DNA from: Alteromonas aestuariivivens
GTDB lineage: Bacteria; Pseudomonadota; Gammaproteobacteria; Enterobacterales; Alteromonadaceae
Assembly: GCF_003367475.1 (NCBI RefSeq)
Contig: NZ_QRHA01000003.1
Location: forward strand, 248,001-312,000
DNA: 64,000 bases
Reading direction: 5' to 3'
The position numbers and the translations under genes are program-made. The notes below the pieces were generated by a model. The model was not told the DNA's origin. It did no database searches and saw nothing but the letters and a program-made list of their open reading frames with translations. Of the stretch, positions 12,972 through 52,494 are shown piece by piece. Numbering within the stretch: the first letter of the stretch is position 1; every line of letters starts with the position of its first letter.

Positions 12972-14066
12972 ATGTTGAACAAAAATCTTCTTTCCAACCG
13001 ATTTATCAAAAAGGCTGTTCTTACAGCGTCCGCCGCCGCAGCAATGACCTTTACGTCTTTTGGCACCCTTGCAGTAAACGAGCAAATGAAGCCACTTACC
13101 GGTTTGTACGCGCTCGATTGTAATCGTGGCCAGTTCCGCGACGACTGCGTTAGTGACCATGATTTTGTTGATGGCTACGCGTGGCGTATTTCCTGGCAGG
13201 AAATGGAACCTCAGCAAGACAAGTATGACTTCAGTGGTCTGGACCACATTGTTAAGTTACTGAACGAAAGAAATCAGAAACTGTCTCTGATCATCATGCC
13301 TGATCTGCCGGATTACCTGGCAAAAACTCCTGGCATGGACACTTACATCTATGAAAATCAGGCTGTGCCTTCACCTTGGGATCCTAAATTGATGGAGCGT
13401 TACACCAAGTTTGTAAATGCTCTGGCCATGCACAAAATGCCTGATCCGAAGAAAGGCAATCGCATGGTTCCTTATCGCTATCATTCGGTAAACGCAGTTC
13501 TGCACCCTACCTTCCCGGGAACTCCGCGAGGTGGCATGCGCAATGAAGGTATCCAAATCAAAGACATCCCTGGATACTCTCGTAGCAAACTGATTGACCA
13601 ACACGTAGACCAGGTTGTCAGCTTGTTCCGCAACACTTTCCGTAAGCAAGCACTGTTCTTCTCACTGTGGCCAATTAATGACAGTGATCGTTCTTACCGT
13701 TTGTACGATGCACTGAACGACAAATTTGCAGAGTACGATAACGTAGGTATCTGGATGGACAACCTGGCTGCAAGCCGTGCCTGTACAAACTGTGAACCCT
13801 ATACAGGCTACCCACAGGAAACCTGGGCAACGCACATGACCAACGTATCGGGCAAGCTGATGACTGGTTTCCAGATGCTGGGTTCATGGGAAAAGCCTTT
13901 CAATGTTAACCACGTACCTAAAGTGGCAAACGGCTCGCCTATGGACGGCATGGATTACGCGATGAAAGCTTTTGACTCTCAGTATTTTGAAGTTTACACC
14001 TGGGATCTGGAGCGCAAAGACTGGCAAGCAGGCCTGAAGCAATTCCAGGAAATACTTCACAAATAA
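12972..14066 (+). CDS. Secreted glycoside-hydrolase-like protein, paralogue 1
   Basis: 364 residues, with a basic N-terminus and an Ala/Thr-rich hydrophobic signal peptide ending near TLA-VNEQ. The mature protein resembles the N-terminal half of a TIM-barrel glycoside hydrolase: DGYAWRISWQEMEPQQDKYDF followed by DHIVKLL is the pattern in which GH42/GH5-like enzymes state that the substrate is approached alone. Other conserved stretches are PSPWDPKLMERY, HPTFPG, IWMDNLAAS, a CTNC pair and YFEVYTWDLE. I cannot assign a CAZy family. It shares about half its residues, by eye, with the next gene and has its own terminator, so it may be expressed separately and strongly. Confidence 0.75.
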   Translation: MLNKNLLSNRFIKKAVLTASAAAAMTFTSFGTLAVNEQMKPLTGLYALDCNRGQFRDDCVSDHDFVDGYAWRISWQEMEPQQDKYDFSGLDHIVKLLNERNQKLSLIIMPDLPDYLAKTPGMDTYIYENQAVPSPWDPKLMERYTKFVNALAMHKMPDPKKGNRMVPYRYHSVNAVLHPTFPGTPRGGMRNEGIQIKDIPGYSRSKLIDQHVDQVVSLFRNTFRKQALFFSLWPINDSDRSYRLYDALNDKFAEYDNVGIWMDNLAASRACTNCEPYTGYPQETWATHMTNVSGKLMTGFQMLGSWEKPFNVNHVPKVANGSPMDGMDYAMKAFDSQYFEVYTWDLERKDWQAGLKQFQEILHK

Positions 14067-14092
14067 GCAAGCTGTGTTAACAATATTTTTAC

Positions 14093-14123
14093 CACACCCT
14101 CTCAATGAGGGTGTGTTTTTTTT
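14093..14123 (+). terminator. Rho-independent terminator after GH-like gene 1
   Basis: A 9-bp stem CACACCCTC / GAGGGTGTG with a 5-nt loop is followed by eight T residues, 27 nt after the stop codon. It separates the two GH-like paralogues into distinct transcripts. Confidence 0.9.
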
Positions 14124-14563
14124 CATACAGACCCACCCTTTATAATGAATTTTTCTTTCAGTTGTCACCCACAGCCCGAATAAATCTCATACTTTTTTGT
14201 AAAAAATACACATATTACAAATCAATTGCTTATACCCAAAAAGCTCAACATTCATCCAGTTAATTATAACAATTCGACCTTTCGGCTTACTCCTTGCTAC
14301 CCCTGTAATTGTCGGGTGAATTGAGAGCTGGTGCCTTTCTGTCTGTCAGCTCTACAGGCTCTGCTGCACCGACTCTCCGGTAAGACAGAAAACGATATAT
14401 GGAATCGCAGTAGGTCTTTAGCTGGCTCCAACCAAGCCTGTAAAGCCGTTCAAAGCAATCCCCAAATGCAGTGCCTCTATGGACAAGGGCTATCGCTTTG
14501 CGAATGGACTTCGCGAATTCCTCTTAAATTCCGCTTCATTACAACGATATTATTAGGTGCAAC
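14124..14563. other. Intergenic region between the GH-like paralogues
   Basis: About 440 bp without a gene I can support. It holds small inverted repeats (AGAGCTG at 14324-14330 against CAGCTCT at 14347-14353; TTGCGAA/TTCGCGAA around 14495-14515) that could structure a long 5' leader or be operator sites. No known riboswitch consensus was recognised. A 78-codon plus-strand frame (14331-14567) shows no features of a real protein. Confidence 0.35.
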
Positions 14564-15631
14564 ATGAGAAAGTATTCTTATCAAACACGTGTATTTTCGA
14601 CGCGATCCTGTTCTTTTTTTTCGGGATTACTTTTTTTCTGCTTTTCCTTCCTGTCCTATGGCCAAGGTCTGTATATTCTGGACGGTAAAAATGGGACCTA
14701 CCGGGATGGTAACATCCGGGATTTGGATTTCATTGATGGTTATGCCTGGCGATATTCCTGGAAAGATCTCGAAACAGGCCAGGGCCGGTACAATTTTGCG
14801 CCTCTGGAACACATTGTTACCAAACTGGCTGCGAAGAACCAAAAATTATCCTGGGTGATGATGGGCGATATCCCAACTTACATAACCTCGATGAGAAGAG
14901 TGAATACCTATATAAGCGGTGGCGTACTCAAGCCCTCTCCCTGGGACAGCACCGTTTTGGAGCAGTACGCCAATTTTATCCAGGCAGCCGCCAACTACCC
15001 CATTGCCGATCCACAACAAGGGGGCAGAAAAGTGGCACTTAAATACCATTCTGCCTTTGGATTGATCCACCCTACCTTCCCGGGCCTCCCGGATGGTGCA
15101 ATTCGAGACAACGCCAGCACTAAAATCTACCAGGTTCCGGGCTACTCACGCTCCAATCTCGTGGATTACCATATCGATTACGTACTTGATCTAGTCTCCC
15201 GGCAATTTCCCGGCACCCCTCTGGTTGTCTCATTCTGGCCCATACATGATGACAATCGCAGAAGTCCACTGTGGAGTGATATACAATCCGAAGTGCTGCA
15301 GTTTGACAACGTTATGATTTGGATGGATAACCTGGCGGCGAGTCGCCCCTGCACGAACTGCAATCCGGTAACAGGCTACCCCAGCAGCACCTGGGCGCAG
15401 CACATGACCAATACGGGCGCCCGGGCAAGAACCGGTTTCCAGATGCTAAGCAGCTGGGACAAGACGTTCAACAGCAAACACGTCCCTAAAGTCAAGAATG
15501 CTACACCGATGGATGGCATAAATTATGCTATCGATGACTTTGATGCGGATTACTTTGAAATTTACGTCTGGGACGTGGAAAAAACCGCCTGGCAAGCCAA
15601 TTTGCGTCAGTTGCACAATCAATTACAGTAA
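14564..15631 (+). CDS. Secreted glycoside-hydrolase-like protein, paralogue 2
   Basis: 355 residues. A tandem paralogue of the previous gene, with the same blocks in order: DGYAWRYSWKDLE, HIVTKLAAKNQKLSW, PSPWDSTVLEQY, HPTFPG, PGYSRSNLVDYH, IWMDNLAASRPCTNC, TGFQMLSSWDKTF and YFEIYVWDVE. A long hydrophobic signal peptide ends near SYG-QGLY. The conserved Glu in YFE and Asp in WMDN are candidate catalytic or binding acids (inference). Together with the related domain at the end of the cluster this is a third member of one family. A role in trimming or processing the cluster's glycan is likely but unproven. Confidence 0.75.
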   Translation: MRKYSYQTRVFSTRSCSFFSGLLFFCFSFLSYGQGLYILDGKNGTYRDGNIRDLDFIDGYAWRYSWKDLETGQGRYNFAPLEHIVTKLAAKNQKLSWVMMGDIPTYITSMRRVNTYISGGVLKPSPWDSTVLEQYANFIQAAANYPIADPQQGGRKVALKYHSAFGLIHPTFPGLPDGAIRDNASTKIYQVPGYSRSNLVDYHIDYVLDLVSRQFPGTPLVVSFWPIHDDNRRSPLWSDIQSEVLQFDNVMIWMDNLAASRPCTNCNPVTGYPSSTWAQHMTNTGARARTGFQMLSSWDKTFNSKHVPKVKNATPMDGINYAIDDFDADYFEIYVWDVEKTAWQANLRQLHNQLQ

Positions 15632-15945: not shown

Positions 15946-16794
15946 ATGCAAACTGCACCATTCACGGTGGACTTTATTGGCATAGGCTCAGGTAAATGCG
16001 GTTCTACTTGGATTTATGAAAATATCGTCAAGCACCCCGAAATCAGTGACGTAAACCTCAAAGAGCTGAATTACTTCAGCGATCTTTACCCCGAACATGA
16101 CTTCAGCTGGTATCAATCTCAGTTTGGAACAAAAGACGACGGGCTGATCAAGGGGGAGTTCTCTGTCACTTATCTTGCGCACCCTGAAGCGCCGAAGAGA
16201 ATCAAAAAGCATTTTCCGAATGCCAAATTGATTGCAATTGTGCGTAACCCGGTAAAACGCGCATTTTCCAATTATCTGCACTCCATCCGAAAAGGTGACA
16301 TTTCACCCAGCCTGTCATTTTCTGACTATATTAAGGATGAGGATAACCTTGCTCCTGGCCGTTACCACGAGTACCTGAAAAACTTTTATGATGTATTTCC
16401 AAAAGAACAAATACTGGTTATTGTTCTGGAAGAGTTTCTGCGCGATATTCCTACAGGAATGCGGCAGATATACCAACACATTGGTGTTAAAGATATCGAT
16501 TACCTCCCGGAGGGATACAACATCCCGTCTAATGAAGCGAAAAACTATCGCTTTCTGCTGTTAGAAAATGTTCTGGTTCAAAGCTATCGGTGGTTATCTC
16601 GCCGCGGTTACACCCGTTTTGTAAAATGGGTGGTTGACTCCGGTATTGCCAAAGTGCTGCGACGGTTCAACGACAGTCAGCAACGTCCTCCGTCCATCGA
16701 CGATGTGAGTAAACAAAAACTGGCGACCTATTTCGAATACCACAATCAGGAATTTGAAAAGCTTGTAGGTCGTAATACCAAGGTATGGTCTTAG
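15946..16794 (+). CDS. PAPS-dependent sulfotransferase 1
   Basis: 282 residues, cytoplasmic. Transfers sulfate from PAPS to a hydroxyl or amine, here probably on a sugar or glycolipid intermediate. The 5'-phosphosulfate loop is FIGIGSGKCGSTWIYE at residues about 10-25, and the 3'-phosphate-binding block is LIAIVRNPVKRAFSNYLHS. The overall layout resembles heparan N-sulfotransferase-type bacterial enzymes. An AAGGA ribosome site precedes the ATG. It is the first gene of the packed operon and is followed 87 nt later by a second, only distantly related sulfotransferase. Confidence 0.9.
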   Translation: MQTAPFTVDFIGIGSGKCGSTWIYENIVKHPEISDVNLKELNYFSDLYPEHDFSWYQSQFGTKDDGLIKGEFSVTYLAHPEAPKRIKKHFPNAKLIAIVRNPVKRAFSNYLHSIRKGDISPSLSFSDYIKDEDNLAPGRYHEYLKNFYDVFPKEQILVIVLEEFLRDIPTGMRQIYQHIGVKDIDYLPEGYNIPSNEAKNYRFLLLENVLVQSYRWLSRRGYTRFVKWVVDSGIAKVLRRFNDSQQRPPSIDDVSKQKLATYFEYHNQEFEKLVGRNTKVWS

Positions 16795-16881
16795 TTTTTT
16801 AGTACTCCCTCCCCTTTCGTAGTTTACAGGGAAGTCTGTACTCGCAGTTTGACGAGCCAACTACATATTGAGTGAGAAGCC

Positions 16882-17907
16882 ATGGATAGCCGTGTTGTTT
16901 TCCTGATCGGTGCCCCTCGGTCGGGTACCACTATGCTGGAAAGGATCATTTCCGGTCACAGTCAGGTGATGGGTGGGCCAGAACCCCATCTTTTAACCCC
17001 TTTAGCGCATTTGGGGGTTTGGAAGAATGTGGACAAGGCCCCCTACGACCACATCGTAGCCGGTATTGGGCAAAAAGACTTCATTCAAAGTTTGCCCAAC
17101 CGGGATCTGGATTACTGGCATGCGTGTAATCGTTATGCCCAGACCCTTTACAATTGCGCCACCGGGAACAATCCGGATACCGTATATCTGGACAAAACTC
17201 CTGAGTATGCAACCGTTTGGCCTTTTCTCAAAAAAGTGTTCCCTAAAGCGAAATACATCGTGATAAGTCGCCATCCTGCGGCCATTTTTTCGTCCTTTGC
17301 GAACAGCTTTTTTGAAGGCGATTATGCACTGACTCAAAAGCACGAACCTTTATTTGAGCGTTACATACCTGCTATATCGGCCATGTTGCAAGACCCGGAT
17401 ATGGATATCTTCCACATCCGCTATGAAGATTTGGTGTCGGATCCACAACGGTATGCCCAGGAACTATGTCAGTTTTTAAACCTGCAGTTCGAGCCGGAAA
17501 TGCTCTGTGTCGACAAAAGCAAATCCACCAGCGGCCTTGGTGACCCGATAGGCATCAAAAAATACAAGGGGCTGAGTAAACAAAGCATCGAACGCTGGGC
17601 CCACGAAATGGTCGAGAATCCAAACAATTACCAATTCTTAAAAAATCTGCTCGCCCGCATCTCTGCAGACGATTTGGCGACATACGGATACGCGCCGGAG
17701 TTGGTGTGGAAACCGGTTTCTGATTTGCTCAGCCAGAACAGTCAGAAAAACAGGCAGGCCGGTAACCATTCCTCATCATGGACGAGTTACAAGCTTCAAC
17801 GGAAGACAATAATAACGCTAAGGAACTTTGCTCAAAACAACTTGTTGTTTCGCAATTCACTGAGCAAGTTACGTTTGGCATGCGACGTACTTTTACGGGA
17901 GTACTGA
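16882..17907 (+). CDS. PAPS-dependent sulfotransferase 2
   Basis: 341 residues. A sulfotransferase-3-like enzyme with the N-terminal PAPS loop VVFLIGAPRSGTTMLERII and the 3'-phosphate block KYIVISRHPAAIFSSFANSFF; HIRYEDLVSDP is also typical. Its sequence differs clearly from the neighbouring sulfotransferase, suggesting a different acceptor position. The C-terminal 60 residues are Ser/Gln/Asn-rich and basic and are not part of the core domain. No PAPS-synthesis genes are visible here, so the donor must come from general sulfate assimilation. Confidence 0.88.
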   Translation: MDSRVVFLIGAPRSGTTMLERIISGHSQVMGGPEPHLLTPLAHLGVWKNVDKAPYDHIVAGIGQKDFIQSLPNRDLDYWHACNRYAQTLYNCATGNNPDTVYLDKTPEYATVWPFLKKVFPKAKYIVISRHPAAIFSSFANSFFEGDYALTQKHEPLFERYIPAISAMLQDPDMDIFHIRYEDLVSDPQRYAQELCQFLNLQFEPEMLCVDKSKSTSGLGDPIGIKKYKGLSKQSIERWAHEMVENPNNYQFLKNLLARISADDLATYGYAPELVWKPVSDLLSQNSQKNRQAGNHSSSWTSYKLQRKTIITLRNFAQNNLLFRNSLSKLRLACDVLLREY

Positions 17908-18000
17908 GTTAGTAAAAGGCAGCAGGGAACAAACAAGGATTTAACAGTGGTTTCATAAAGTTGTAGGAATCTACTTAACGCTTAATCGTAAGGATTAATT

Positions 18001-18867
18001 ATGGAATACCGTAAAGACTACTCAGATCTCAACGGCCACGAAGAAATTGAGATCGTCAACGCTGTTGAAGGTAGCGATAGCTACGAATACTCAGCCAGAA
18101 TGAAAGAACGAATTGCTTTTTCAGAAACCGGCAAACCATACAAGGGAATTTCAGTTATTTTTCCGGCCTACAACGAAGAAGATAACGTTGAGCGTGCAGT
18201 GAACGCTGCACTAAGTTCTTTCAGACGCTTTTTCGATAAAATCGAAATTATCGTTGTTGATGACGGCAGCCGGGACAAAACCTGTGAACGCTTGGACGCT
18301 TTAGCTGAAACCACTCCTGAAGTAGTGGCCAAGCACCATGCAAAGAACCGTGGTTACGGTGCCGCTCTGCGAACCGGCATCGAGTCGGCGCAATACGATC
18401 TTATTTTCTTTTCTGACTCCGATTTACAATTTGACCTAGATGAAATCGAACTGCTTCTGGAATGGATTGATCATCATGACATCGTTACCGGATACCGCGC
18501 AAAGCGTGCAGACCCGATGATCCGAAAACTCAATGCCTGGGCCTGGGGTACGCTGGTGAAAACCTTACTGGGTGTCAAAGTCAGGGATATCGATTGTGCT
18601 TTCAAGTTATTCCATCGTCATGTGTTTGATGGCTACAAACTGGAATCGGTTGGGGCAATGATCAACACCGAAATTCTTGCCCGCGCCAAGCAGAACAAAA
18701 TGACCATCAAGGAAGTGCCGGTAAATCACTATTCCCGCGAAGTTGGTGAGCAGACCGGAGCAAACATCAAAGTAATATTCAAGGCGTTCCGTGAACTCAT
18801 TGAAATGCACGGAAAGCTGCGAAAACCACAAGGTGCGGCCATGGATTTGGCCATGAACAAGAAGTAA
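18001..18867 (+). CDS. GT2 glycosyltransferase, polyprenyl-phosphate-sugar synthase-like
   Basis: 288 residues. A GT-A fold: ISVIFPAYNEEDNVERAV, nucleotide-binding IIVVDDGSRDKT, the DXD-like FFSDSDLQFD, and the DPM1-type block VRDIDCAFKLFHRHV. There is no membrane anchor, like the dolichol-phosphate-mannose synthase group that loads a sugar onto a polyprenyl phosphate. About 45 extra residues precede the fold. This fits the GT-C enzyme later in the operon (30270-31877), which should use such lipid-linked donors. Ribosome site GTAAGGAT. Confidence 0.85.
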   Translation: MEYRKDYSDLNGHEEIEIVNAVEGSDSYEYSARMKERIAFSETGKPYKGISVIFPAYNEEDNVERAVNAALSSFRRFFDKIEIIVVDDGSRDKTCERLDALAETTPEVVAKHHAKNRGYGAALRTGIESAQYDLIFFSDSDLQFDLDEIELLLEWIDHHDIVTGYRAKRADPMIRKLNAWAWGTLVKTLLGVKVRDIDCAFKLFHRHVFDGYKLESVGAMINTEILARAKQNKMTIKEVPVNHYSREVGEQTGANIKVIFKAFRELIEMHGKLRKPQGAAMDLAMNKK

Positions 18868-18921
18868 CTGGGGTTTTACACCAGATACAGTAAGGATTGA
18901 ATTAAATACGAGGGACTGCTT

Positions 18922-20367
18922 GTGGAATCGATTGGTTATCGTTTCGAGAAAGTTGCGGAGCGGCGCAAAGACGCTGTAGCGCTGGTAATAGACTCCGTTG
19001 AGTATACGTATGCACAATTGTTGGCAGATGTCAGGATCGCCAAAAACTGCATGCTGGCTCAGGGTTTACGGGAAAATGACTGCATTGCCAACCTGTATCC
19101 GAATGGGTACCCGTTTGTTGTATATTCTCTGGCGACTTTTGCACTGGGAGGGATCCTGTTGCCTGTCAACAACACCTACCAACCCAACGAGCTTCAGTAC
19201 TATCTCGAAACGGCTGAGGTCAAGGGGCTGTGCAGTCCCACAGGGCTGCCAGCTGCTGTTGACTGCGCATCCCGTCATACGATTCCCTGGTTTGACGAAA
19301 CGGCCCTTGAACAACATTCATCCTTTTCCAGTAGCAGCATGAGCCAAAGCGGTGGAATGTATTTATTTTCATCCGGCTCAACCGGAAAATCCAAACGCGT
19401 CTTTCGTACTCAACAGGATCTGGTGTGTGAGTACAGCATGATGTCAGAAGTCAATGGTGCAAACGAGCAAGACATTGTTTTATGCACTCTGCCGCTGTAT
19501 CACGCTCATGGTTTTGGTAATGCACTTCTTATGGCGCTGCTTTCCGGCGCAAAGTGCATTGTACTTACTCATGAATTTAACGGGCGTAAAACCATGCAAG
19601 CCATAGCAGACTACAAAGTCAGTTTGTATCCTGCCGTACCTTTCATGTTTCAGATCATGGCTCTGGCCCGATTTAATCCCCCTCTCGACTTCAGCTCACT
19701 TCGTTACTGTTTGTCCTCCGGTGCGCCATTGTCAGAGAAAATCTTCAAGGATTTTCACGATAGAACAGGCATATACATCGGTCAAATTTACGGTAGCAGT
19801 GAAACCGGAGCTATGTTCATCAACACACACCCCTGCCCTGAAAGTAAAAAAACTGTCGGCTTCCCACTCCCTGGTATTGACGTCGAAATTCGAAGTGACG
19901 AAGGAGAAGTATTGCTAGCCGGAGAAGAGGGAGAAATATGGGTCCGCAGTCCGGCAATGACCAAGCAATATGATGGGATGCCTGAAGCGACAGCGGCAGC
20001 ATTTGTGGACGGCTGGTTTTTCACCGGTGACATGGGGGTATTTTCCGAATTCGGTCTCACTGTAACAGGACGCAAAAAGCTGTTGATAAATGTAGCCGGC
20101 AACAAAGTGGATCCTCTGGAAGTTGAAACACTAATCAATTCCCACGAACAGGTGGAAGAGTCTGTAGTGGTGGCCAAGCCCCATGAGACTTATGGAGAAC
20201 AGGTGGTTGCCTACGTGGTGCTGTTACCGCAGTCACAAGCCAGCGTAGAAGACCTTCAACATTACGTAAAAGGCAAGCTTGTTGAATATAAGGTACCGAA
20301 ACAAATCATTTTTCTGAGTGCGATCCCCAAAAGCCCCTTAGGAAAAATTTTGCGCAAGTATCTGTAG
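18922..20367 (+). CDS. Adenylate-forming acyl/aryl ligase
   Basis: 481 residues from a GTG start preceded by GAGGGA. An ANL-superfamily enzyme that makes an acyl-AMP and passes the acyl group to CoA or a carrier protein. Visible motifs: A3 LFSSGSTGKSKRV, A5 YGSSETGAM, A7 GWFFTGDMG, the hinge GRKKLLINVAGNKVDP and the C-terminal catalytic Lys in PKSPLGKILRKYL. Two neighbours narrow the role: a DUF98 chorismate-lyase-like protein 41 nt downstream and an ACP just after that. I infer activation of 4-hydroxybenzoate or a related aromatic acid and loading onto the ACP. A fatty or hydroxy acid is the main alternative. Confidence 0.82.
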   Translation: MESIGYRFEKVAERRKDAVALVIDSVEYTYAQLLADVRIAKNCMLAQGLRENDCIANLYPNGYPFVVYSLATFALGGILLPVNNTYQPNELQYYLETAEVKGLCSPTGLPAAVDCASRHTIPWFDETALEQHSSFSSSSMSQSGGMYLFSSGSTGKSKRVFRTQQDLVCEYSMMSEVNGANEQDIVLCTLPLYHAHGFGNALLMALLSGAKCIVLTHEFNGRKTMQAIADYKVSLYPAVPFMFQIMALARFNPPLDFSSLRYCLSSGAPLSEKIFKDFHDRTGIYIGQIYGSSETGAMFINTHPCPESKKTVGFPLPGIDVEIRSDEGEVLLAGEEGEIWVRSPAMTKQYDGMPEATAAAFVDGWFFTGDMGVFSEFGLTVTGRKKLLINVAGNKVDPLEVETLINSHEQVEESVVVAKPHETYGEQVVAYVVLLPQSQASVEDLQHYVKGKLVEYKVPKQIIFLSAIPKSPLGKILRKYL

Positions 20368-20408
20368 TACATCGATGTTCAAGTTTCACTGCTCAGGAGA
20401 GTAAAAAG

Positions 20409-21023
20409 ATGATTGAACCGTATTACTGTAAGACTGAAAACGAGCAAACCTTATTCAGGAAAGACGGATTTGTGAAAGGCTGGTCAATTCCTCAACGTGG
20501 CATGGAAAAGCAGCTCCCAATGGAGGAAGTTCCCCCGTTTCTGCGAACCCTTCTTGTCACCGATGGTACCGTGACCAAGAGTCTGGAGGCTTACTTTTGG
20601 GAGCCGGTTACTGTGGTCCCCATTGATCAGGGGCTGCGCAAGGCAGAATACGATGTACCCTGGCTAAAAGTAAGCAGTGGAGAGGATGTTCTGACCCGCG
20701 AGGTCAAACTGCAGGGAGCGAACAGCCACAGCGTTTATGCCACAGCCTTCTCAATTATCCGGCCAAAAATCATTCCTGCCTTTTTCCGGCAACGTTTGCT
20801 GCGAGGCGAAATTGGTATTGGCATGCTGATTCGCGATTCGGGCATGGAATCGTATCGTGAAGTTCTGGAAATTGGCCTTGAGCGTTTCCCCAGTTTTCAT
20901 TACGACGAGAATTCGAACCGGATAGAAAAAATTAAAGTGCTGTTTCGCACCTATCGCATTGTACTGGGTGGTGAAGCGGCAATACTGATCACCGAACGCT
21001 TTCCCAAGGCGTTGTTTGAGTGA
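20409..21023 (+). CDS. DUF98 chorismate pyruvate-lyase-like protein
   Basis: 204 residues. The pattern matches the DUF98 family, which includes mycobacterial Rv2949c, an enzyme giving 4-hydroxybenzoate and pyruvate from chorismate. Shared blocks by recall: LLVTDGTVTKSLEAY near the start, REVKLQGANSHSVYATAFSII in the middle, the MLIRDSGMESYREVLEI helix, and RTYRIVLGGEAAILITERF at the end. It is distinct from classical UbiC and lies between the ligase and the ACP, which points to a pathway outside ubiquinone synthesis. The family call is confident; the exact product is inference. Confidence 0.75.
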   Translation: MIEPYYCKTENEQTLFRKDGFVKGWSIPQRGMEKQLPMEEVPPFLRTLLVTDGTVTKSLEAYFWEPVTVVPIDQGLRKAEYDVPWLKVSSGEDVLTREVKLQGANSHSVYATAFSIIRPKIIPAFFRQRLLRGEIGIGMLIRDSGMESYREVLEIGLERFPSFHYDENSNRIEKIKVLFRTYRIVLGGEAAILITERFPKALFE

Positions 21024-21062
21024 TCCAAACAAGGAAGAGCATACATCAGAGAGGTAAAAACC

Positions 21063-21296
21063 ATGTCATTGAATGTACTTGAATTACTCAAATCCACTAT
21101 TGGTCAGGTTAAAGGAGAAGACTTTAGCGATACACCCACATCGTCACCTCTGGACCTTGACTCAATTAACCGGATAACGCTGATCGCAGAAATGGAGAAT
21201 GTCTTCAATATCAACATCAGCGATATGGATATCGAACCAGAGACATTTGAATCCATCGATTCACTGTCGAGCTTTGTCAAGGGTGTGATCAAATGA
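21063..21296 (+). CDS. Acyl carrier protein
   Basis: 77 residues, acidic, with the four-helix ACP layout. The phosphopantetheine attachment Ser is in DLDSINRI (residues about 32-39), where DSI replaces the usual DSL. Ribosome site AGAGAGGT. Its stop codon overlaps the start of the first hexapeptide acyltransferase by 4 bp, suggesting tight coupling and possibly a direct hand-over from ACP to that enzyme. No ketosynthase, ketoreductase or dehydratase is present, so it probably carries a ready-made acyl group rather than building a polyketide. Confidence 0.92.
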   Translation: MSLNVLELLKSTIGQVKGEDFSDTPTSSPLDLDSINRITLIAEMENVFNINISDMDIEPETFESIDSLSSFVKGVIK

Positions 21297-21898
21297 GAAT
21301 GACCTTCAAAGAATTTTTGGCACTGGTTAAATCTGACATCGACCTTAAGAAACACTGGTTTCTCAAGAACGATACGCCATTCAATAAAAATGTCCGAGTG
21401 TGGCTTGAACCCGGGACCATCGCGGTAGTTGTCTACCGTTTTGGTCACTGGACCAATCATGTAAAAGTACCCATTCTCAAGCAGTTGTTGAGACTGATTT
21501 ACATTCTGGGTAAATCCGTGGTGGTGCTGGGTTTTGGAATTTATATTCCTTCGCGCTTCAAAATGGGTAAAGGGCTGGCCATTCACAACTTCTCAGGCAT
21601 TTTTATTCCCCCTACCACGGCGGGCGACAATCTGTTTGTTTTTCAAAATGTAACTATTGGGCACCTTCGTGGTCAGGGAGGCCGCCCACCCAAAATCGGA
21701 AATAACGTATTTTTGGGTGCCGGCGCCAAGATCCTCGGCGATATAACAATTGGCAATAATGTGGTAGTGGGAGCCAATTCACTGGTAATGAACGACGTGC
21801 CGGACGGGTGCACCGTAGTAGGCGTTCCTGCCAGGGTAGTTTCCAAGGAAACAACCTGGATCCAGGAAAAACTCGACGGAGTGGGCGACCACTGGTGA
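21293..21898 (+). CDS. Hexapeptide-repeat acyltransferase 1 (serine-acetyltransferase-like)
   Basis: 201 residues. The N-terminal half has a membrane-associating helix and the motif GTIAVVVYRFGHW; the C-terminal half is a left-handed beta-helix with hexapeptide repeats (IGNNVFLGAGAKILGDITIGNNVVVGANS) and the usual closing VVGVPARVV. Family members transfer acetyl from acetyl-CoA to sugars or serine, and relatives such as LpxA use acyl-ACP. The 4-bp overlap with the ACP gene makes acyl-ACP donor use attractive, but nothing in the sequence proves it. His in AIHNFS is the likely catalytic base. Confidence 0.82.
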   Translation: MRMTFKEFLALVKSDIDLKKHWFLKNDTPFNKNVRVWLEPGTIAVVVYRFGHWTNHVKVPILKQLLRLIYILGKSVVVLGFGIYIPSRFKMGKGLAIHNFSGIFIPPTTAGDNLFVFQNVTIGHLRGQGGRPPKIGNNVFLGAGAKILGDITIGNNVVVGANSLVMNDVPDGCTVVGVPARVVSKETTWIQEKLDGVGDHW

Positions 21899-21943
21899 TG
21901 TGACTTCAATGACGTGAACAAGGCGGGACCAAGGAACGGTGAC

Positions 21944-22567
21944 ATGAACTTAACAGCTGACATCAAACAGTCTATGCGGATTCAGGAGAAAAGTGGTGCC
22001 TGTGGCTTGATTTCAACACTTTTCAGCTCCGTTTTTTGGGCAGTAGCGGTATACCGCTACGGTCGGATGATTCAGCGACTTCCGGCGCCACTGGCGATTC
22101 CGGCAAAAATTGCATACTGGACAATGTTTTACCTGATTCAATCCCTTTTTGGCATAAGTATTCAGCTGTGGGGAAAAATTGGCGAAGGATTTGTAATTGT
22201 CAGAGGTGGGTGCATTTTTATTGTGGCAGAATCGATTGGCCGGCAGTTTACGGTTTTTCCCGGTGTAACCGTCGGTAATGTTCGAGGTTCAAAACGCCTG
22301 CCAATTATTGGCGATAACGTCACTCTGGAACCCGGTGTAAAAGTGCTGGGCGAGGTGAATATTGGAAACAACGTCATAGTCCGTGCAAATAGCCTGGTAC
22401 TCAGCGACGTTCCTGACAACTCGGTAGTCATTGGCAACCCCGTCAAAATTACCAGTACCTCTTCTTCGGTAGCTTACAAGCCCCCGATCCCCAAACCTGC
22501 TCACCTGGCTCCGTACTGCGGGCCCTTAAACGACTTATCTGAGACTGATTTATGCAAAGAAAACTGA
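21944..22567 (+). CDS. Hexapeptide-repeat acyltransferase 2
   Basis: 207 residues from ATG 21944, chosen because AAGGAACGGTGAC precedes it; an upstream GTG at 21914 lacks a ribosome site. It has an N-terminal AVYRYGRM motif, a hydrophobic stretch (YWTMFYLIQSLFGISI), then beta-helix repeats (IIGDNVTLEPGVKVLGEVNIGNNVIVRANS). Where its sisters have an IHNFS-type His it has VIVRGGCIFIV, so the catalytic His may be missing or displaced. Its last 16 bp overlap the GT4 gene. Confidence 0.78.
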   Translation: MNLTADIKQSMRIQEKSGACGLISTLFSSVFWAVAVYRYGRMIQRLPAPLAIPAKIAYWTMFYLIQSLFGISIQLWGKIGEGFVIVRGGCIFIVAESIGRQFTVFPGVTVGNVRGSKRLPIIGDNVTLEPGVKVLGEVNIGNNVIVRANSLVLSDVPDNSVVIGNPVKITSTSSSVAYKPPIPKPAHLAPYCGPLNDLSETDLCKEN

Positions 22568-23883
22568 AAATTGCCATGGTTGCTTCCTGCCCTTTTCCTG
22601 CAAACCATGGTACTCCGGGCGCAATACGAGAGCTTTCACTGTTTTTGCACAAGCAGGGGCACGAAGTTCACGTTGTGACTTACCCACAGTATGAAGAAGG
22701 CCTGACTACAGAGGGCCTGATTATCCATCGAGTTGAATCCAAGCGATTTAAAGATGACAAAATAACGATTGGTCCCAGCAAATCCAGAGTGGTCTACGAT
22801 TACCTGCTGATTCCCAAACTAATCGAAGTCATCCGGACGCACGACATCGATATTATCCACGCTCACAATTACGAAGCCAACATTGCCGGCTGGGTAGCCA
22901 AACTGTTTACCAAAACCCCGTTAGTCTATAACGGTATCAACAGCATGGCAGATGAATTACCCACTTACAATGTTCTGAAGCCAAAGTGGTTTTTTCGTGC
23001 ATTCGGAAAACTGCTCGACTACATCGTTCCCCGCATGGGCAACGCCTCCATGGTGCTCTCCGATGAACTCAAGGGTTACCTGACAGAAAATATGAACATC
23101 AATAGTGATAAGGTTTTTGTTATCCCCCCGGGCGTGGATCCCAGCCTGTTCTCCCATGGTAACAGGCAGGTAATATTCGACAAACTCAGCCTGTCCCCTG
23201 ATACCCCCATTATCTTGTACACCGGAGCGATTGAGGGATTTCAGCGCATCGATCTGCTGATGAGAGCAATGGGGACCGTAGCCAAACAAATGCCCGAAGC
23301 AAAACTGCTGATTGCCGGAAATGTCAAGAATGACAAGGCCAAAACAGAGTTACTGAAGTTAGCTGAGGAAGTCGGTGCGCACAATAATGTCATTATGGTG
23401 GAAAACGTTAGTTTCCCTCAATTACCAGACTTCCTCGATGCTGCGACAGTTACTGTCAGTCCCCGAACTTCGTGTCCAGGCTATCCGATTAAGTTGCTGA
23501 ACTATATGGCCGCTGGAAAAGCTATCGTGAGTTTTGCCGGCAGCGCAAAAGCTTTGTGTCACGGCTACAACGGCTACGTAGCAAAGGACGAAGATACCGA
23601 GGACTTTGCTAAAGGCATTCTCATGCTGTTGAAAGACCCACAACTCTCTGCCGTTCTGGGTCAACGGGCATTTGAAACCATCCAAGGTAACTTTGACTGG
23701 GACGCCATTGCCAGAGGAACGGTGGAAATTTACGCACAGTTAGTGGACAGGGGGCAAATTGATACCGCCCGACTTCGCAATGTCGTCAAGAAATCCTACA
23801 TACCCGAGTTTGTGGAAGTCACCAGTGCTGGCAGCAGCTTTCTCAAGGAAGGGGTACTGACCTTTCCGCAGTATGACCAGTAA
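22552..23883 (+). CDS. GT4-family glycosyltransferase
   Basis: 443 residues, GT-B fold. N-terminal MVASCPFPANHGTPGAIRELS is the acceptor-side glycine loop, DIIHAHNYEANIAG is typical of GT4, VIPPGVDPSLF links the domains, and the C-terminal donor site has the E-X7-E-like region VTVSPRTSCPGYPIKLLNYMAAGKAIV. It would add a sugar from a nucleotide-sugar donor on the cytoplasmic side. It overlaps the previous gene by 16 bp. It is the only clear GT4 in the operon, so the repeat unit is short or other transferases are encoded elsewhere. Confidence 0.9.
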   Translation: MQRKLKIAMVASCPFPANHGTPGAIRELSLFLHKQGHEVHVVTYPQYEEGLTTEGLIIHRVESKRFKDDKITIGPSKSRVVYDYLLIPKLIEVIRTHDIDIIHAHNYEANIAGWVAKLFTKTPLVYNGINSMADELPTYNVLKPKWFFRAFGKLLDYIVPRMGNASMVLSDELKGYLTENMNINSDKVFVIPPGVDPSLFSHGNRQVIFDKLSLSPDTPIILYTGAIEGFQRIDLLMRAMGTVAKQMPEAKLLIAGNVKNDKAKTELLKLAEEVGAHNNVIMVENVSFPQLPDFLDAATVTVSPRTSCPGYPIKLLNYMAAGKAIVSFAGSAKALCHGYNGYVAKDEDTEDFAKGILMLLKDPQLSAVLGQRAFETIQGNFDWDAIARGTVEIYAQLVDRGQIDTARLRNVVKKSYIPEFVEVTSAGSSFLKEGVLTFPQYDQ

Positions 23884-23921
23884 ACCAGACGTTAAGGCCA
23901 AAGGAACGGAACGACCGGACT

Positions 23922-24494
23922 ATGAAGTTGATGTTTACTGATATTAGAAGAAAGCAGCAGAACTACGTGTTGGTTCAACGCTTTTTTAATCAGGTTGTAA
24001 AGGTGCTTTTACAACATGGGACAATTGCGGTGATGTTTTATCGTTTTGGCCACTGTTGCACATTGATGCCTGTGCCGGTTCGCCTGCCGTTTGAACTTGT
24101 GCACGCATTAATGGCGCCATTGGTAAAGTTACTGACTGGAATTTATATCAATCCGCGTCAGACCATTGGTGGTGGGTTTGTCATCCATAACTTCAGTAAT
24201 GTGCATATCGATTGTGCACACATTGGCAAAAATCTGACGATTAATCAGGGGGTATATATTGGAAAAGGCGCTCTTTCTAAAGACAAACCTTCGATAGGCA
24301 ACAACGTCTATGTGGGAGCTGGTGCAAAAATCATTGGAAAAGTCCGTATCGGCGACAATGCGATTGTGGCTGCCAATTCCTGCATCATCAAAGATGTTCC
24401 GGACTGCTGTTTAGTGTCGGGTGTACCGGGGGTTTTGATATCGAGAACGATCACCTCGGACTATGTGCAAAGGGGTAAACCCCACAACAAGTAA
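23922..24494 (+). CDS. Hexapeptide-repeat acyltransferase 3
   Basis: 190 residues. Same architecture as the protein at 21293-21898, with GTIAVMFYRFGHC, a hydrophobic segment, GGGFVIHNFSNVHIDC with the probable catalytic His, and beta-helix repeats (IGNNVYVGAGAKIIGKVRIGDNAIVAANS) ending VSGVPGVLI. It is clearly a paralogue of acyltransferase 1. A second in-frame ATG at 23931 is possible. Three such genes in one operon suggest several O-acylation positions or several acyl donors. Confidence 0.82.
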   Translation: MKLMFTDIRRKQQNYVLVQRFFNQVVKVLLQHGTIAVMFYRFGHCCTLMPVPVRLPFELVHALMAPLVKLLTGIYINPRQTIGGGFVIHNFSNVHIDCAHIGKNLTINQGVYIGKGALSKDKPSIGNNVYVGAGAKIIGKVRIGDNAIVAANSCIIKDVPDCCLVSGVPGVLISRTITSDYVQRGKPHNK

Positions 24495-24511
24495 CCAGAG
24501 AGAGACATACT

Positions 24512-25072
24512 GTGGCAACACCTTTAGTACATGCATGTGTAGGCGTCACGCTGGTAGCCATACCACTGTTGACCAATAAGCAGCATTTTAACCTGCCCAT
24601 GCCCAAAGTGATCGCAGGGTCCATACTCTTTGCGTGCCTGCCAGACCTGGATCTGATTTACTCCTATTTACTCACCGGTGACGCAATTCGCTTACATTTC
24701 AAACATACGCATACACTGGTATTTTCTCTGATTTCAGGCTGGTTGGTGTGGTGGTTTACCAACACCAAGCTTGCCCTGGCAGCCACCTTACTGGTTCTCA
24801 GTCACGTCATTGTAGATGGGCTTACTGGTCCGGAACTGGGCTTCTACAGTACGCCTGGCGTACCCGCTTTCCTGCCATTCAGCCAGCTACCGGTCAGCTT
24901 TCCGATGACCCTGTTCCATGGTGTGGAACACGATAACTGGTTTAGTCAGAACAACCTGATAAATGCGGTATACGACATCGCTATCTATGGGCCAATACTA
25001 GCCATAAGTTGCTGGTGTCTGATCCGCAGAAAGACGTTGGATTCATTCAAAGATAGGGAGCAAAAAGGGTGA
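24512..25072 (+). CDS. DUF457/YdjM-like integral membrane metal-dependent hydrolase family protein
   Basis: 186 residues from a GTG preceded by AGAGAGAGAC. About four or five hydrophobic segments carry conserved polar residues typical of the family: TPLVHACVG near the start, LPDLDLIYS, HFKHTHTLVFSL and LSHVIVDGLTG. Relatives are annotated as membrane-bound metal-dependent hydrolases, but the reaction is unknown. Its stop overlaps the next GTG start by 4 bp. A lipid-linked intermediate is a plausible substrate (inference). Confidence 0.75.
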   Translation: MATPLVHACVGVTLVAIPLLTNKQHFNLPMPKVIAGSILFACLPDLDLIYSYLLTGDAIRLHFKHTHTLVFSLISGWLVWWFTNTKLALAATLLVLSHVIVDGLTGPELGFYSTPGVPAFLPFSQLPVSFPMTLFHGVEHDNWFSQNNLINAVYDIAIYGPILAISCWCLIRRKTLDSFKDREQKG

Positions 25073-26229
25073 AAACTGTCATTCATTATTTTGTTAAAGT
25101 GATTATCCCCGCGACCATTATATTAATCTTGCTCGCAATGGCGTTTCTGTTGCTCAGAGAAATGCGCCGTCATTCCAATATTGTTAACGCCGACTCCGCC
25201 CGACAAGCCGGCCAACCCCTTCCGGTCAGTGTCTACGAAGCCAACGTAGCTCCCATTCAGCCTCTGATTGTAGGCAGTTGTACCACTCAACCAAGTAAGA
25301 CCGTGGAACTGGCCAGCGCCATCAACGATATCATCATCACCGGAAGTTATTTTGTCGAAGGAGATCTGGTTTCTGAGGGTCAAAAATTGCTTGAGCTGGA
25401 CAAACGTCAAATACAGGCAAGCATCAGCAAGGCACAGGATCGTATTCGCTGGCTCAATGAGGAGATACGTGAGCGGGCAAGCCTGGTGCAGTATTACAAA
25501 GAAAACAGAGCCAGCGGGCAATCGCTGGAGATTGATTACCGGCGTGCGCTTATTGACCTGATACAGGCTGAAGGAGATCGTTCAACCGCTGATGAAGAGT
25601 TAACCCTGGCTCAGGTTGATTTGGAAAAGACCGACATAATCTCGCCCGTCACCGGGCGGGTGGATATCATAGCCGCCAAGGGCGAAGTCGCGCGGGTCAA
25701 CCAGACTGTAGCCACTATTACTGTAGTCAATCCCATGGTTGCAAATTGTGTGTTTGATACCTCTGACTATCAGTTTTTGATGGCAAAACGCAATGAAGGC
25801 GAAGTTGTCCTGAAAGGTCTGGACGGTTATCAGTTTTCAGGGCGCTTTTTGCAGGAAGCGCCATTGGATCCGGAAGCCGAACAAATCGATAACCTCAACT
25901 GGTATTTCACCATCAACAATGATCATCTGATGGTACAAGCCAATATGACCGGCTTCATTCGATTTACGTCCACCGAAGAGGTACTGCGCATCCCTGCAGT
26001 TGCACTGCTTAACCAAAATCAGAACCAGGCTCAGGTATTCAGGGTTAATGATACGACCGCTAACCTCGTGACAGTAAATACCGGTCAGCGGGCCAGCGGT
26101 TTTGTTGCCATAACCAGTGGTCTGGAACCCGGTGACAGAGTGGTCGTAGCGGGCCAGCTTGACTTGATCGACGGCGACTACGTAAACCCTATTGACCCAA
26201 GGGATGTCACATTCAGTTATGGCCAGTAA
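25069..26229 (+). CDS. HlyD/RND-type periplasmic adaptor protein
   Basis: 386 residues from a GTG. An N-terminal membrane anchor (residues about 10-30), then a split lipoyl domain (GSYFVEGDLVSEGQKLLELDKRQ and the half near DIISPVTGRVDIIAAKGE) flanking an alpha-helical hairpin, a beta-barrel, and a membrane-proximal domain (NTGQRASGFVAITSGLEPGDRVVVAGQ). Such adaptors link inner-membrane pumps to outer-membrane channels. No ABC or RND partner lies nearby, which is unusual, so it may pair with a distant pump or work with the flippase and GT-C module. Confidence 0.85.
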   Translation: MKTVIHYFVKVIIPATIILILLAMAFLLLREMRRHSNIVNADSARQAGQPLPVSVYEANVAPIQPLIVGSCTTQPSKTVELASAINDIIITGSYFVEGDLVSEGQKLLELDKRQIQASISKAQDRIRWLNEEIRERASLVQYYKENRASGQSLEIDYRRALIDLIQAEGDRSTADEELTLAQVDLEKTDIISPVTGRVDIIAAKGEVARVNQTVATITVVNPMVANCVFDTSDYQFLMAKRNEGEVVLKGLDGYQFSGRFLQEAPLDPEAEQIDNLNWYFTINNDHLMVQANMTGFIRFTSTEEVLRIPAVALLNQNQNQAQVFRVNDTTANLVTVNTGQRASGFVAITSGLEPGDRVVVAGQLDLIDGDYVNPIDPRDVTFSYGQ

Positions 26230-27679
26230 CCGTCGCCTGCTAAAAAACTCCGCCGCCGTCACGCTTAGCGTTGCCATAGGAGGTATTCTGGTTTTTCTGG
26301 CCATGATAATTCTGGCCAGATACCTCGGTGTGGAGGATTTTGGAATTTTTTCCACCCTGTTGGCAATCGTCAGTCTGATTCAGCTGTTCGCCGATGGCGG
26401 AATGGTAAACATCACCATACGGGATGTTGCCAGAGATAATCAAAGCCTCAACAGGTACATTGGCAGCACATCCATCGGCTTAATCATGGTTTCTGCCTTA
26501 CTACTGCTAATCACCGGGGGGGTTGTTTATGTGGCTGACATACCCAGTAAGGTGGGTGTATCTCTGTTGCTAATGTTACTGGCACAGCTTTGTGCTCTGC
26601 AGGGCCTGATTTTTGGTGCTGCAATAAGGGCGATGGAAGACATGGAAATCACGGCATTTATTGGCGTTGTACATAAGCTGATGCTGGTAGCGGCCATGTG
26701 GGGCACATTGGAACTTGGTGGAGACCTGACAGCGGTATGCGCCGCAAACCTGATAGTCAACCTGATTCAGACTTTATGGCTACAGTGGGTAGTGCACCGA
26801 AAGTATGGTGCGCTGGTGTACCGATTTGACCGCACGCTTTGGAAAACCGTATTTAAGGATTCCCTACCCCTGGGGATCTCCATGGTACTGCGTAAGCTGA
26901 CTGTGCATCTGGACATACTCCTGCTGTCTGTCCTGGCGACGGTTTTTGCCGTTGGCCTTTACAGCTCCGCCTACCGGGTTTTGCAGCTAATCGAAACGGC
27001 TTCAATTGCTTTTAGCGGCGTAATGCTTCCGGTTTTGTCACAGTTGGCTGTTCAGGACAAAACCCGGTATGCCGGTATGCTCAACAATGTACTTACCTTT
27101 ATGCTTGCCGCAGCAATCCCCCTTGCAGCATGGTTATGGGTTGCGTCTGACAACCTGGTTCTGGCACTTTACGGAGAAGACTACAAATCAGCAGGGCAGG
27201 TACTGCAGGTTCTGGGTATCGGCTTGATTGCACTGATCCCCGCCTCCCTGTTACACCCTGCGTTTGCGGCCATTAACGAGCAAAAGATTTTGATGAAACT
27301 GGCGATTGCCAGCCTGGCGCTGAACTCAGTACTGGGAGTTATTCTAATTTGGTATTTCAGCTATCTGGGTGCCGCAATTGGCACTGCAGTCACCGAATGC
27401 GTGGTATTTTTCACCGGTTTAGTCATTCTCGGAAAGCTGGGTTATGGATTCCGTAATCTAAGCAAAGTCCTCACGATCCTGTTGTCTGTATGCCTGACAA
27501 TGCTCGTGTACCAGTTGCTTCCTCAGCAGGCCGGGCTGCTACCGGAATTACTCAGACTCAGTGCCTGTATCCCCGTTTACCTGATGTGCCTGTTCACATT
27601 GCGGGTGTATTCCATTCGGGATATCCAGTTGATGCTTAAAAAGCCGAACGGCAATGAGCAACCCGTGGTGAATTCCTAA
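26219..27679 (+). CDS. Wzx/MATE-like polysaccharide flippase
   Basis: 486 residues from ATG 26219. Two upstream in-frame starts (26192, 26204) lie deeper in the previous gene and have worse signals. About 12-14 membrane segments, with the typical N-terminal block IILARYLGVEDFGIFSTLLA and the central FAVGLYSSAYRVLQLIE. It should move a lipid-linked sugar unit across the inner membrane. The ORF overlaps the adaptor gene by 11 bp and the next gene by 1 bp. Confidence 0.88.
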   Translation: MASNRRLLKNSAAVTLSVAIGGILVFLAMIILARYLGVEDFGIFSTLLAIVSLIQLFADGGMVNITIRDVARDNQSLNRYIGSTSIGLIMVSALLLLITGGVVYVADIPSKVGVSLLLMLLAQLCALQGLIFGAAIRAMEDMEITAFIGVVHKLMLVAAMWGTLELGGDLTAVCAANLIVNLIQTLWLQWVVHRKYGALVYRFDRTLWKTVFKDSLPLGISMVLRKLTVHLDILLLSVLATVFAVGLYSSAYRVLQLIETASIAFSGVMLPVLSQLAVQDKTRYAGMLNNVLTFMLAAAIPLAAWLWVASDNLVLALYGEDYKSAGQVLQVLGIGLIALIPASLLHPAFAAINEQKILMKLAIASLALNSVLGVILIWYFSYLGAAIGTAVTECVVFFTGLVILGKLGYGFRNLSKVLTILLSVCLTMLVYQLLPQQAGLLPELLRLSACIPVYLMCLFTLRVYSIRDIQLMLKKPNGNEQPVVNS

Positions 27680-28971: not shown

Positions 28972-28972
28972 C

Positions 28973-31877: not shown

Positions 31878-31888
31878 GAATAAAAACA

Positions 31889-44083: not shown

Positions 44084-44306
44084 AGTAATTCCTCTCTAGA
44101 TGAGTCGTTTTGGTTGTTTAACACCTGATGAAGATCTGACCGTGCGCGATATTGTTTTGTTTGTGTCCGGCACTTAAAAAGTGTAGTGCCAGATTATCGA
44201 TCTGGCGCGCAACCTCAGGCCAAAACTCACTTATTCGCATTTTGGTTGGCAGCAGCGTCAGATTTCGCTATTTTGTTACCTTTGTGTATCGCGTTGGGCA
44301 GGGAGT

Positions 44307-45125: not shown

Positions 45126-45236
45126 GCACGCTCACCGGGTCTATCCGGTAAACCGGCTTACCATTGTGAACATCCTGGTCCATACTGATTTATCAGAGCA
45201 AACATTGCACGAACCGAAAGAGACGAAAGGAGCGGT

Positions 45237-45797: not shown

Positions 45798-45873
45798 CCC
45801 CATACCTTTTTTCGTGCGGTGGCAGCAAAGGAAAAAAGCACCGCCAAACACAATTGTTTCACTTGACTTAATT

Positions 45874-45891
45874 ATGAAACAATTGTTTCAT
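45874..45891 (+). promoter_or_regulatory. Perfect 18-bp palindrome, probable RpiR/MurR operator
   Basis: ATGAAACAATTGTTTCAT is a perfect dyad, 27 bp before the amidase start. A second half-site-like CAATTGTTTCA lies at 45851-45861 in the same orientation, about 30 bp upstream (three helical turns). TTGACT at 45863-45868 would be a suitable -35, so a bound regulator would cover the promoter. The adjacent regulator gene makes it the likely ligand-controlled target. Confidence 0.7.
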
Positions 45892-45917
45892 TGTGTTGTT
45901 ATCCAACGGAATGAATC

Positions 45918-48688: not shown

Positions 48689-48702
48689 CTTAAGGAATTT
48701 CA

Positions 48703-49521: not shown

Positions 49522-49530
49522 GAGCAAAAA

Positions 49531-51980: not shown

Positions 51981-52006
51981 TGACCTTTGATATACAGGAG
52001 TAAAGG

Positions 52007-52372: not shown

Positions 52373-52433
52373 GTTGCTGCGGGCCATGCCCGCTGCATTT
52401 CCCACCGTTTAACGCTAAAAATCAAGGCATTAC

Positions 52434-52449
52434 TTGACTCACTGGTCAG
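52434..52449 (+). promoter_or_regulatory. RutR-like operator site 1
   Basis: TTGACTC-AC-TGGTCAG fits the 7-2-7 dyad TTGACCA-NN-TGGTCAA bound by RutR, with 11 of 14 arm bases matching. It lies 46 bp before the exported adenosine-deaminase-like gene. The next bases (GTTATTG) also match the flank of the permease site. Confidence 0.65.
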
Positions 52450-52494
52450 GTTATTGATTGAATACCGAAACTGACCATTCACAGCCGATCCCCT

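Follow-up and report, generated by a model that had tools for sequence, protein, structure and literature searches.

Gene Content of the Locus

The window analyzed here, a 64,000-nucleotide stretch of Alteromonas aestuariivivens contig NZ_QRHA01000003.1, carries three consecutive genes on the + strand, encoding in order an adenylate-forming ligase (18922–20367), a DUF98 protein (20409–21023) and an acyl carrier protein (ACP; 21063–21296), separated by gaps of 41 and 39 bases. The start of the next gene, encoding the hexapeptide acyltransferase LbH1, shares 4 bases with the end of the ACP gene, and all of them belong to a + strand run from about 15946 to 33925 in which genes are separated by short gaps or overlap. 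With moderate confidence, we read the three genes as a supply-and-activation unit within a glycan operon, i.e., a 4-hydroxybenzoyl-ACP module that would arylate a sulfated surface glycan. The 19 genes between 12972 and 33925 were as follows:

12972–14066, +, glycoside hydrolase (GH)-like protein 1; PF02449 (25.1 bits, cut-off 21) over a 34-residue stretch; by alignment kin to the N-terminal part of 31820–33925
14564–15631, +, GH-like protein 2; without Pfam match, aligned with GH-like protein 1
15946–16794, +, sulfotransferase SulfT1; PF00685; homologue in all eight window-type operons
16882–17907, +, sulfotransferase SulfT3; PF13469 (E 5.6e-33); NoeE match far under cut-off; homologue in operons G003 and G569
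18001–18867, +, GT2 glycosyltransferase; PF00535 (E 6.7e-30); directly upstream of the ligase, a position shared by all eight window-type operons
18922–20367, +, adenylate-forming ligase, proposed 4-hydroxybenzoate:ACP ligase; PF00501 (E 5.9e-66) and PF13193
20409–21023, +, DUF98 protein; PF01947, "Chorismate pyruvate-lyase Rv2949c-like" (40.7 bits, curated cut-off 22)
21063–21296, +, stand-alone ACP; PF00550 (25.8 bits, cut-off 20.8); serine S34 in L-D-S-I
21293–21898, +, LbH1, CysE/EpsC-like hexapeptide acyltransferase, proposed 4-hydroxybenzoyl transferase; PF00132
21914–22567, +, hexapeptide transferase LbH2; PF00132; none seen in the G003 or G569 operons
22552–23883, +, GT4 glycosyltransferase; PF00534 (E 9.3e-26)
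23922–24494, +, hexapeptide transferase LbH3; PF00132
24512–25072, +, YdjM-family membrane protein; PF04307 (E 2.7e-13)
25069–26229, +, RND-type periplasmic adaptor (HlyD-like); NCBIfam TIGR01730 (124.2 bits, cut-off 94.9)
26192–27679, +, Wzx/MOP-type flippase; PF01943 (E 1.3e-27)
27679–28971, +, membrane protein, possibly a polymerase; no family over cut-off
28973–30280, +, membrane protein; weak match to a sugar-binding domain, PF02837 (23.6 bits, under the cut-off of 28)
30270–31877, +, PMT_2-type glycosyltransferase; PF13231 (E 2.9e-9)
31820–33925, +, GH-like domain fused to a CE1 feruloyl-esterase-like domain; PF00756 (E 5.6e-20); true start probably further in than 31820

A preliminary description of the window had claimed the three consecutive genes, glycan-related surroundings and the absence of a following polyketide synthase, and each of these was borne out. 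Pfam matching recovered sulfotransferases, GT2 and GT4 glycosyltransferases, three hexapeptide transferases, a Wzx-like flippase and a PMT_2-type protein, and no ketosynthase matched among the 19 genes, the rest of the window having been read but not scanned and the rest of the genome not searched for a copy acting in trans.

The DUF98 Protein

The profile check on 20409–21023 agreed with the earlier assignment to DUF98, scoring over the curated PF01947 cut-off, and no NCBIfam family was assigned. The nearest solved sequence was AF1396, itself a DUF98 protein. The predicted model, with a predicted local distance difference test (pLDDT) score of 89.5, matched AF1396 with Z 19.1 and a root-mean-square deviation (rmsd) of 1.9 over 154 residues, and E. 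coli UbiC (1g81) with Z 12.8 and rmsd 2.9 over 148 residues, placing it in the chorismate-lyase fold. Residues R97 and E196, which we take to be the counterparts of UbiC R76 and E155, presumably catalytic, were invariant in 86 of 86 aligned DUF98 rows (L115 = G022 being counted twice and the split gene L107 omitted) and also in L140 and L142. In an alignment with UbiC from the window genome itself, R97 paired with an Arg, and E196 was one column off and matched by motif only. No DNA-binding domain was matched in the protein by Pfam. Based on the PF01947 match, the fold, the invariant Arg and Glu and, more strongly, the pattern of UbiC replacement described below, the DUF98 protein is very probably a chorismate lyase, cleaving chorismate to 4-hydroxybenzoate and pyruvate.

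Apparent Replacement of UbiC Across Genomes

A pattern scan of 84,980 species genomes, in which one of two peptide patterns was required, yielded 121 DUF98 relatives, from which 80 loci were kept. Five of these lay in window-type operons and most others were Chromatiaceae loci without the window's genes nearby; the surroundings of ten solo DUF98 loci that were read were varied, mostly housekeeping. A separate UbiC was not found in any of the 41 tested genomes carrying a DUF98 relative, which belong to loci hand-picked from the 80 and include five with the glycan operon. A PF04345 match in G094 was rejected as UbiC, as it coincided with the DUF98 gene itself. Likewise, ubiC was not found in G569, G881 and G989, three genomes carrying relatives of the ligase. 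Together with the window's genus, considered next, ubiC was not found in 46 of the 48 DUF98 genomes examined (G022 and G098, the same genome, counted once). UbiA was matched in all 21 entries tested, weakly in G092, and the number of PF01947 copies was determined for 22 entries, excluding G569, G881 and G989; both sets include G022 and G098 as two entries for one genome.

Within the window's genus (36 genomes), ubiC was absent from four genomes, comprising three of the five that have DUF98 and an incomplete genome without DUF98. The association gave a Fisher p of 0.005, or 0.0015 leaving out the incomplete genome, uncorrected for relatedness. Weak PF01947 matches in the genus were not accepted as DUF98, as all but five fell on UbiC genes, and the window's DUF98 query found only L002–L006 among loci L001–L031. 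Among the solo loci L038–L112, DUF98 seems to replace UbiC in Chromatiaceae and several other proteobacteria. Two DUF98 genes were present in a Teredinibacter genome (L101, L137; G089) where ubiC was not found. On a simple reading of these gene contents, DUF98 would supply 4-hydroxybenzoate for ubiquinone where ubiC is missing.

The window's DUF98 protein resembles the UbiC and DUF98 lyases of quinone pathways in its fold, in the proposed reaction and in having solo relatives where ubiC was not found, and differs from them in lying within a glycan operon, with a ligase and an ACP as neighbors, and in coexisting with ubiC in two genomes. The cyanobacterial chorismate lyase belongs to the DUF98 family, and PF01947 was present in the Synechococcus elongatus control genome. 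Cyanobacteria are described as making plastoquinone from 4-hydroxybenzoate (PMC6394484).

Phylogeny of DUF98

A 40-row DUF98 tree, thinned by hand, was used together with the approximately unbiased (AU) test; an 85-row tree has long branches, and both trees omit the L115 duplicate and L107. The operon copies did not form one clade (AU p 0.0005) and were interleaved with solo copies. Those of the window and G003 fell among Chromatiaceae solo genes, the L113/L117-type copies stood next to the solo genes of G002 and G015, both in the window's genus, and the L103 copy was near beta-proteobacterial solo genes with weak support, while the place of L131_G569 was unsure. DUF98 would thus have entered or left the operon more than once, and apparently moved repeatedly between operon and solo settings, the branches being long. 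Such movement suggests that the operon and ubiquinone settings need the same product.

Related Operons and Conserved Linkage

Eight window-type operons were compared, namely those of the window, its congener G003 (L034), G022 (L033 = L115), L113, L116, L117, L103 and G569. Since L033, L113 and L116 are near-copies in DUF98, they represent about five lineages. Genes for GT2, ligase, DUF98, ACP, LbH1, GT4 and SulfT1 were common to all eight (the L103 ACP being found by listing short open reading frames), and the block from GT2 through ligase, DUF98 and ACP to LbH1 was consecutive in seven. The exception was G569, in which about 20 kb of one contig separates ligase and DUF98 and apparent transposase pieces are nearby.

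The association was also recovered by searches made without DUF98. Searching 398 genomes from the phylum and 369 from the class with a ligase profile (E ≤ 1e-105) recovered the window genome and just three others, G569, G881 and G989, all three having DUF98 and ACP in the same cluster (3/3). If a single DUF98 copy were placed at random, it would lie this near with a probability of 0.001–0.007 per genome. An LbH1 profile search of 394 and 398 genomes (E ≤ 1e-50) found only the window genome and G569, the latter again with DUF98 and ACP adjoining. In both searches four or eight candidates were scored per genome under self-set thresholds (1e-50, 1e-105) and the samples overlapped, leaving room for misses. 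In G881, sulfotransferase-like and flippase-like genes lie upstream of a set made up, in order, of an LpxL-like acyltransferase on the other strand, ACP, DUF98 and ligase; G989 has ACP, ligase, two B12-binding radical SAM proteins and DUF98 in succession. Recurrence in other genera, also from the ligase-only search, indicates that the association of ligase, DUF98 and ACP is more than chance.

The related clusters had further features of their own. The two radical SAM proteins of G989 (L142, 2058–4832, between ligase and DUF98) perhaps modify the aryl unit. In Teredinibacter L101, the ligase, ACP and an LpxL-like protein lie together, DUF98 is found beyond one opposite-strand gene, and the second DUF98 lies elsewhere. 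A nonribosomal peptide synthetase with condensation, adenylation, carrier and thioesterase domains (L136, 13510–17562) adjoins the glycan cluster of G569. L113 has HddA-like and HddC-like genes, below cut-offs, a hint of a heptose.

Ligase and Carrier Protein

The window's ligase was 63% identical to that of G003 and 39–40% identical to four other operon relatives. None of the best 25 of its 106 NCBIfam matches reached its cut-off, and its AlphaFold model was of moderate quality (pLDDT 72.8). Assigning its specificity from family, Protein Data Bank (PDB) sequence or fold was tried and abandoned, since the matches span many acids. The adenylate-forming ligase and the carrier protein, both parts of aryl-starter pathways, are present (PF00501, PF00550), and D33-S34 of the ACP was invariant in nine aligned ACPs. 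As the linkage with DUF98 and ACP is conserved, the enzyme is a putative 4-hydroxybenzoate:ACP ligase, with 4-hydroxybenzoate its likely substrate.

LbH1, LpxL-Like Proteins and the Esterase Domain

LbH1 follows the ACP in all eight operons and was 58–93% identical to the window's copy in the five relatives aligned. Curated equivalog cut-offs were not reached (EPS_EpsC, 111.7 bits vs. 150; cysE, 103 vs. 210.65), and with scores under the cut-off for all of the best 25 of 36 NCBIfam models, LbH1 is regarded as a relative of these families and not as an assigned member. Judged by its position, it most likely transfers the aryl group, this being the weakest step of the proposal. In G881 and L101, an LpxL-like protein (PF03279) lies beside the ligase and ACP; members of this family are known to use acyl-ACP donors.

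The esterase domain of 31820–33925, searched from 33122, had as its best PDB sequence match the ferulic acid esterase 7xrt (E 3.1e-18). Its alignment has S in GFSMGG, D in KDGT and H in VAHTP, which we take to be the catalytic Ser, Asp and His. Among the G003, G569, L113 and L117 loci aligned, the esterase part was conserved in the first two. By sequence similarity, the domain is a candidate for acting on phenolic esters of polysaccharides, and an esterase of this kind beside an aryl-activation module is what would be expected of an aryl-ester glycan.

The Proposed Pathway and Its Alternatives

In the proposed pathway, DUF98 would convert chorismate to 4-hydroxybenzoate and pyruvate, and the ligase would adenylate 4-hydroxybenzoate and, as the conserved linkage implies, load it onto the phosphopantetheine arm of the adjacent ACP. 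LbH1 would then transfer 4-hydroxybenzoyl to a hydroxyl on one of the sugars in the growing glycan, a role in which an LpxL-like acyltransferase may replace it in related clusters. The sulfotransferases and further hexapeptide transferases would attach other groups, the product would be exported by the flippase and the RND-type adaptor, and the GH-like/esterase fusion, read as secreted, might serve in trimming or recycling of arylated glycan. In our estimation, it is reasonably probable that the glycan carries an aryl ester. Of the two central claims of the preliminary description, the 4-hydroxybenzoyl-ACP module thus gains from the conserved linkage and from the lack of a polyketide synthase in the operon, with the ligase substrate still a matter of deduction; the aryl-ester surface glycan stands as the best reading, with the feruloyl-esterase-like domain as a companion, while the transferase and the product are still deduced.

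Several observations weigh against this pathway. UTRA sensor/effector domains aligned to the DUF98 model at Z up to 13.4, tied with UbiC at 12.8, so that the fold alone is no proof of catalysis. By PDB sequence, the ligase came nearest to ligases of oxalate, malonate, fatty acids, coumarate and benzoate, and the best matches to its fold included oxalate, feruloyl, malonate and salicylate ligases and nonribosomal peptide synthetase domains alike. The closest solved relatives of LbH1 were serine acetyltransferases, and it could be an ordinary O-acetyltransferase. The esterase domain was missing from L113 and L117, the two Alteromonadaceae-type loci aligned. Five of the 60 relatives searched (G033, G037, G039, G053 and G058) had neither UbiC nor DUF98, and ubiA was present in G033; the exclusion of ubiC by DUF98 is therefore no strict rule, and other sources or losses exist. 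Many of the 41 genomes are metagenome assemblies of unreported completeness, and XanB2-type chorismatases were outside the search. Finally, in five genomes (G022, G091, G097, G099 and G100) the operon copy was the sole PF01947 gene and ubiC was not found, meaning that the operon DUF98 there may also, or mainly, serve ubiquinone.

The last of these points bears on an alternative that we consider unlikely, in which DUF98 is a ubiquinone chorismate lyase merely located in the operon, and the glycan is acylated with an unrelated acid, for instance a short fatty or dicarboxylic one, activated by the ligase and ACP. A lone operon copy plausibly feeds ubiquinone in those five genomes, and the oxalate and malonate ligases among the nearest PDB sequences would suit such an acid. 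The window genome (G000) and G003, however, hold both ubiC and the operon DUF98 and keep the latter under strong constraint. Their operon copies are 87% identical, with pN 0.086 and pS 0.80; synonymous sites were saturated in this gene, as in eight of the nine genes compared between the two genomes, with ACP nearly so, and pN and pS are therefore quoted in place of dN/dS. Since ubiC is retained alongside it, the operon copy in G000 and G003 is probably dedicated to the glycan. An unrelated acid also fits poorly with the presence of DUF98 in the cluster of all three ligase relatives that were found without a DUF98 query, and with ligase, ACP and DUF98 staying together in G881 and G989 despite different surroundings.

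It is improbable, in our view, that 4-hydroxybenzoyl-ACP is made but the aryl group ends up on a lipid or small molecule, for which the flippase and RND-type adaptor would be the exporters, instead of on a polysaccharide. The adaptor in the operon, the outer-membrane efflux proteins in L113 and G569, and the LpxL-like acyltransferases beside the ligase in L101 and G881 would be in keeping with such a product. On the other hand, the genes constantly found alongside encode glycosyltransferases, a sulfotransferase and a hexapeptide transferase, the esterase domain is similar to enzymes that act on polysaccharide esters, and the 19 scanned genes held zero ketosynthases. That DUF98 is here a non-catalytic, UTRA-like ligand sensor is very improbable despite the UTRA alignments, given the lack of a matched DNA-binding domain, a DUF98 protein as the closest solved structure, the fully invariant Arg and Glu, and relatives that occur where ubiC is missing.

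Other Features of the Window

The RND-type adaptor (25069–26229) sits within the glycan operon, and no RND pump was among the 19 genes scanned; an outer-membrane efflux protein also occurs in each of the L113 and G569 clusters. The adaptor possibly marks an unusual route of glycan export. Three related GH-like domains are found in the one operon (12972–15631 and 31820–33925). Pfam supports them only through PF02449 (GH42), with a short match in the first domain and longer matches in the homologues from L113 and L117, and GH-like protein 1 had no PDB sequence match up to E 1. Just after the operon, 34433–35833 was read as a di-heme cytochrome c peroxidase, with a homologue (357 bits) on the upstream side of the L117 operon. 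An apparent purine/allantoin breakdown island, named from translations only, extends over 44300–63700, where adenosine deaminases, a permease, an aminotransferase, amidohydrolases and a TonB receptor were read.

Comparison with Known Systems and Significance

Aryl starter units on carrier proteins are known primers of polyketides. FadD22, a ligase of the mycobacterial phenolic glycolipid pathway, carries a fused carrier domain, whereas the window's ligase and ACP are separate genes. Rv2949c is described as making p-hydroxybenzoate in that pathway and FadD22 as activating it for Pks15/1 (PMC7205293). The window shares with it a DUF98 lyase and an adenylate-forming ligase for p-hydroxybenzoate; in mycobacteria, however, Pks15/1 elongates the aryl starter, and no ketosynthase was found in the window's operon. 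The mycobacterial comparison drawn in the preliminary description is apt as far as the parts go; without a ketosynthase in the operon, their end use must be a different one.

XanB2-type enzymes belong to a protein family other than DUF98. In the xanthomonadin/arcuflavin aryl polyene system, a XanB2-type chorismatase is present and the AMP ligase ArcT activates chorismate-derived hydroxybenzoate for a cell pigment (PMC3949708). The start of that pathway, activation of a chorismate-derived hydroxybenzoate by an AMP ligase, is like that of the window, and its product, a polyene, is unlike. The window's module resembles the first two steps of both starter pathways, and elongation by a ketosynthase, their defining third step, was not found within the operon. 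The module is accordingly not filed as a member of either pathway, and aryl-carrier activation appears to be put to a different use.

Exosortase/XrtA-associated exopolysaccharide clusters contain an acyl ligase and an ACP, and are not known to include a chorismate lyase. The XrtA-associated ligase model was not among the best 25 of the 106 NCBIfam matches of the window's ligase. A 2013 study of Xanthomonas oryzae by Zhou reportedly, to go by its title, links XanB2 and hydroxybenzoates to exopolysaccharide. The combination had been put forward as one not known to be described, and none of the titles and abstract openings surveyed, whose coverage mostly excludes subscription papers, mentioned a hydroxybenzoyl-ester exopolysaccharide or this set of genes.

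For quinone biology, the results provide a simple, testable assignment: in purple sulfur bacteria, and in other proteobacteria without detected ubiC, DUF98 would be the chorismate lyase that has been missing from ubiquinone synthesis. More tentatively, chorismate lyase, aryl:ACP ligase and ACP may form a portable aryl-ester cassette for bacterial surface polysaccharides, served by either of two unrelated acyltransferases, LbH-type or LpxL-type, accompanied in some lineages by a matching secreted aryl esterase, and exchanging its lyase with ubiquinone synthesis. With such exchange, one gene in some genomes would serve both the quinone pool and the cell surface. The cassette seems to activate an aryl starter without elongation genes beside it, in sulfated-glycan operons of several lineages. 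Carbohydrate analysis could miss phenolic esters because alkali removes them. Phenolic esters occur in plant cell walls, and the cassette suggests, in parallel, that they may also form a class of decorations on bacterial glycans. If the portable cassette is real, it would provide bacteria with a glycan that bears phenolic esters, much as the feruloylated walls of plant cells do, with ultraviolet screening, metal binding or oxidative cross-linking as possible functions.

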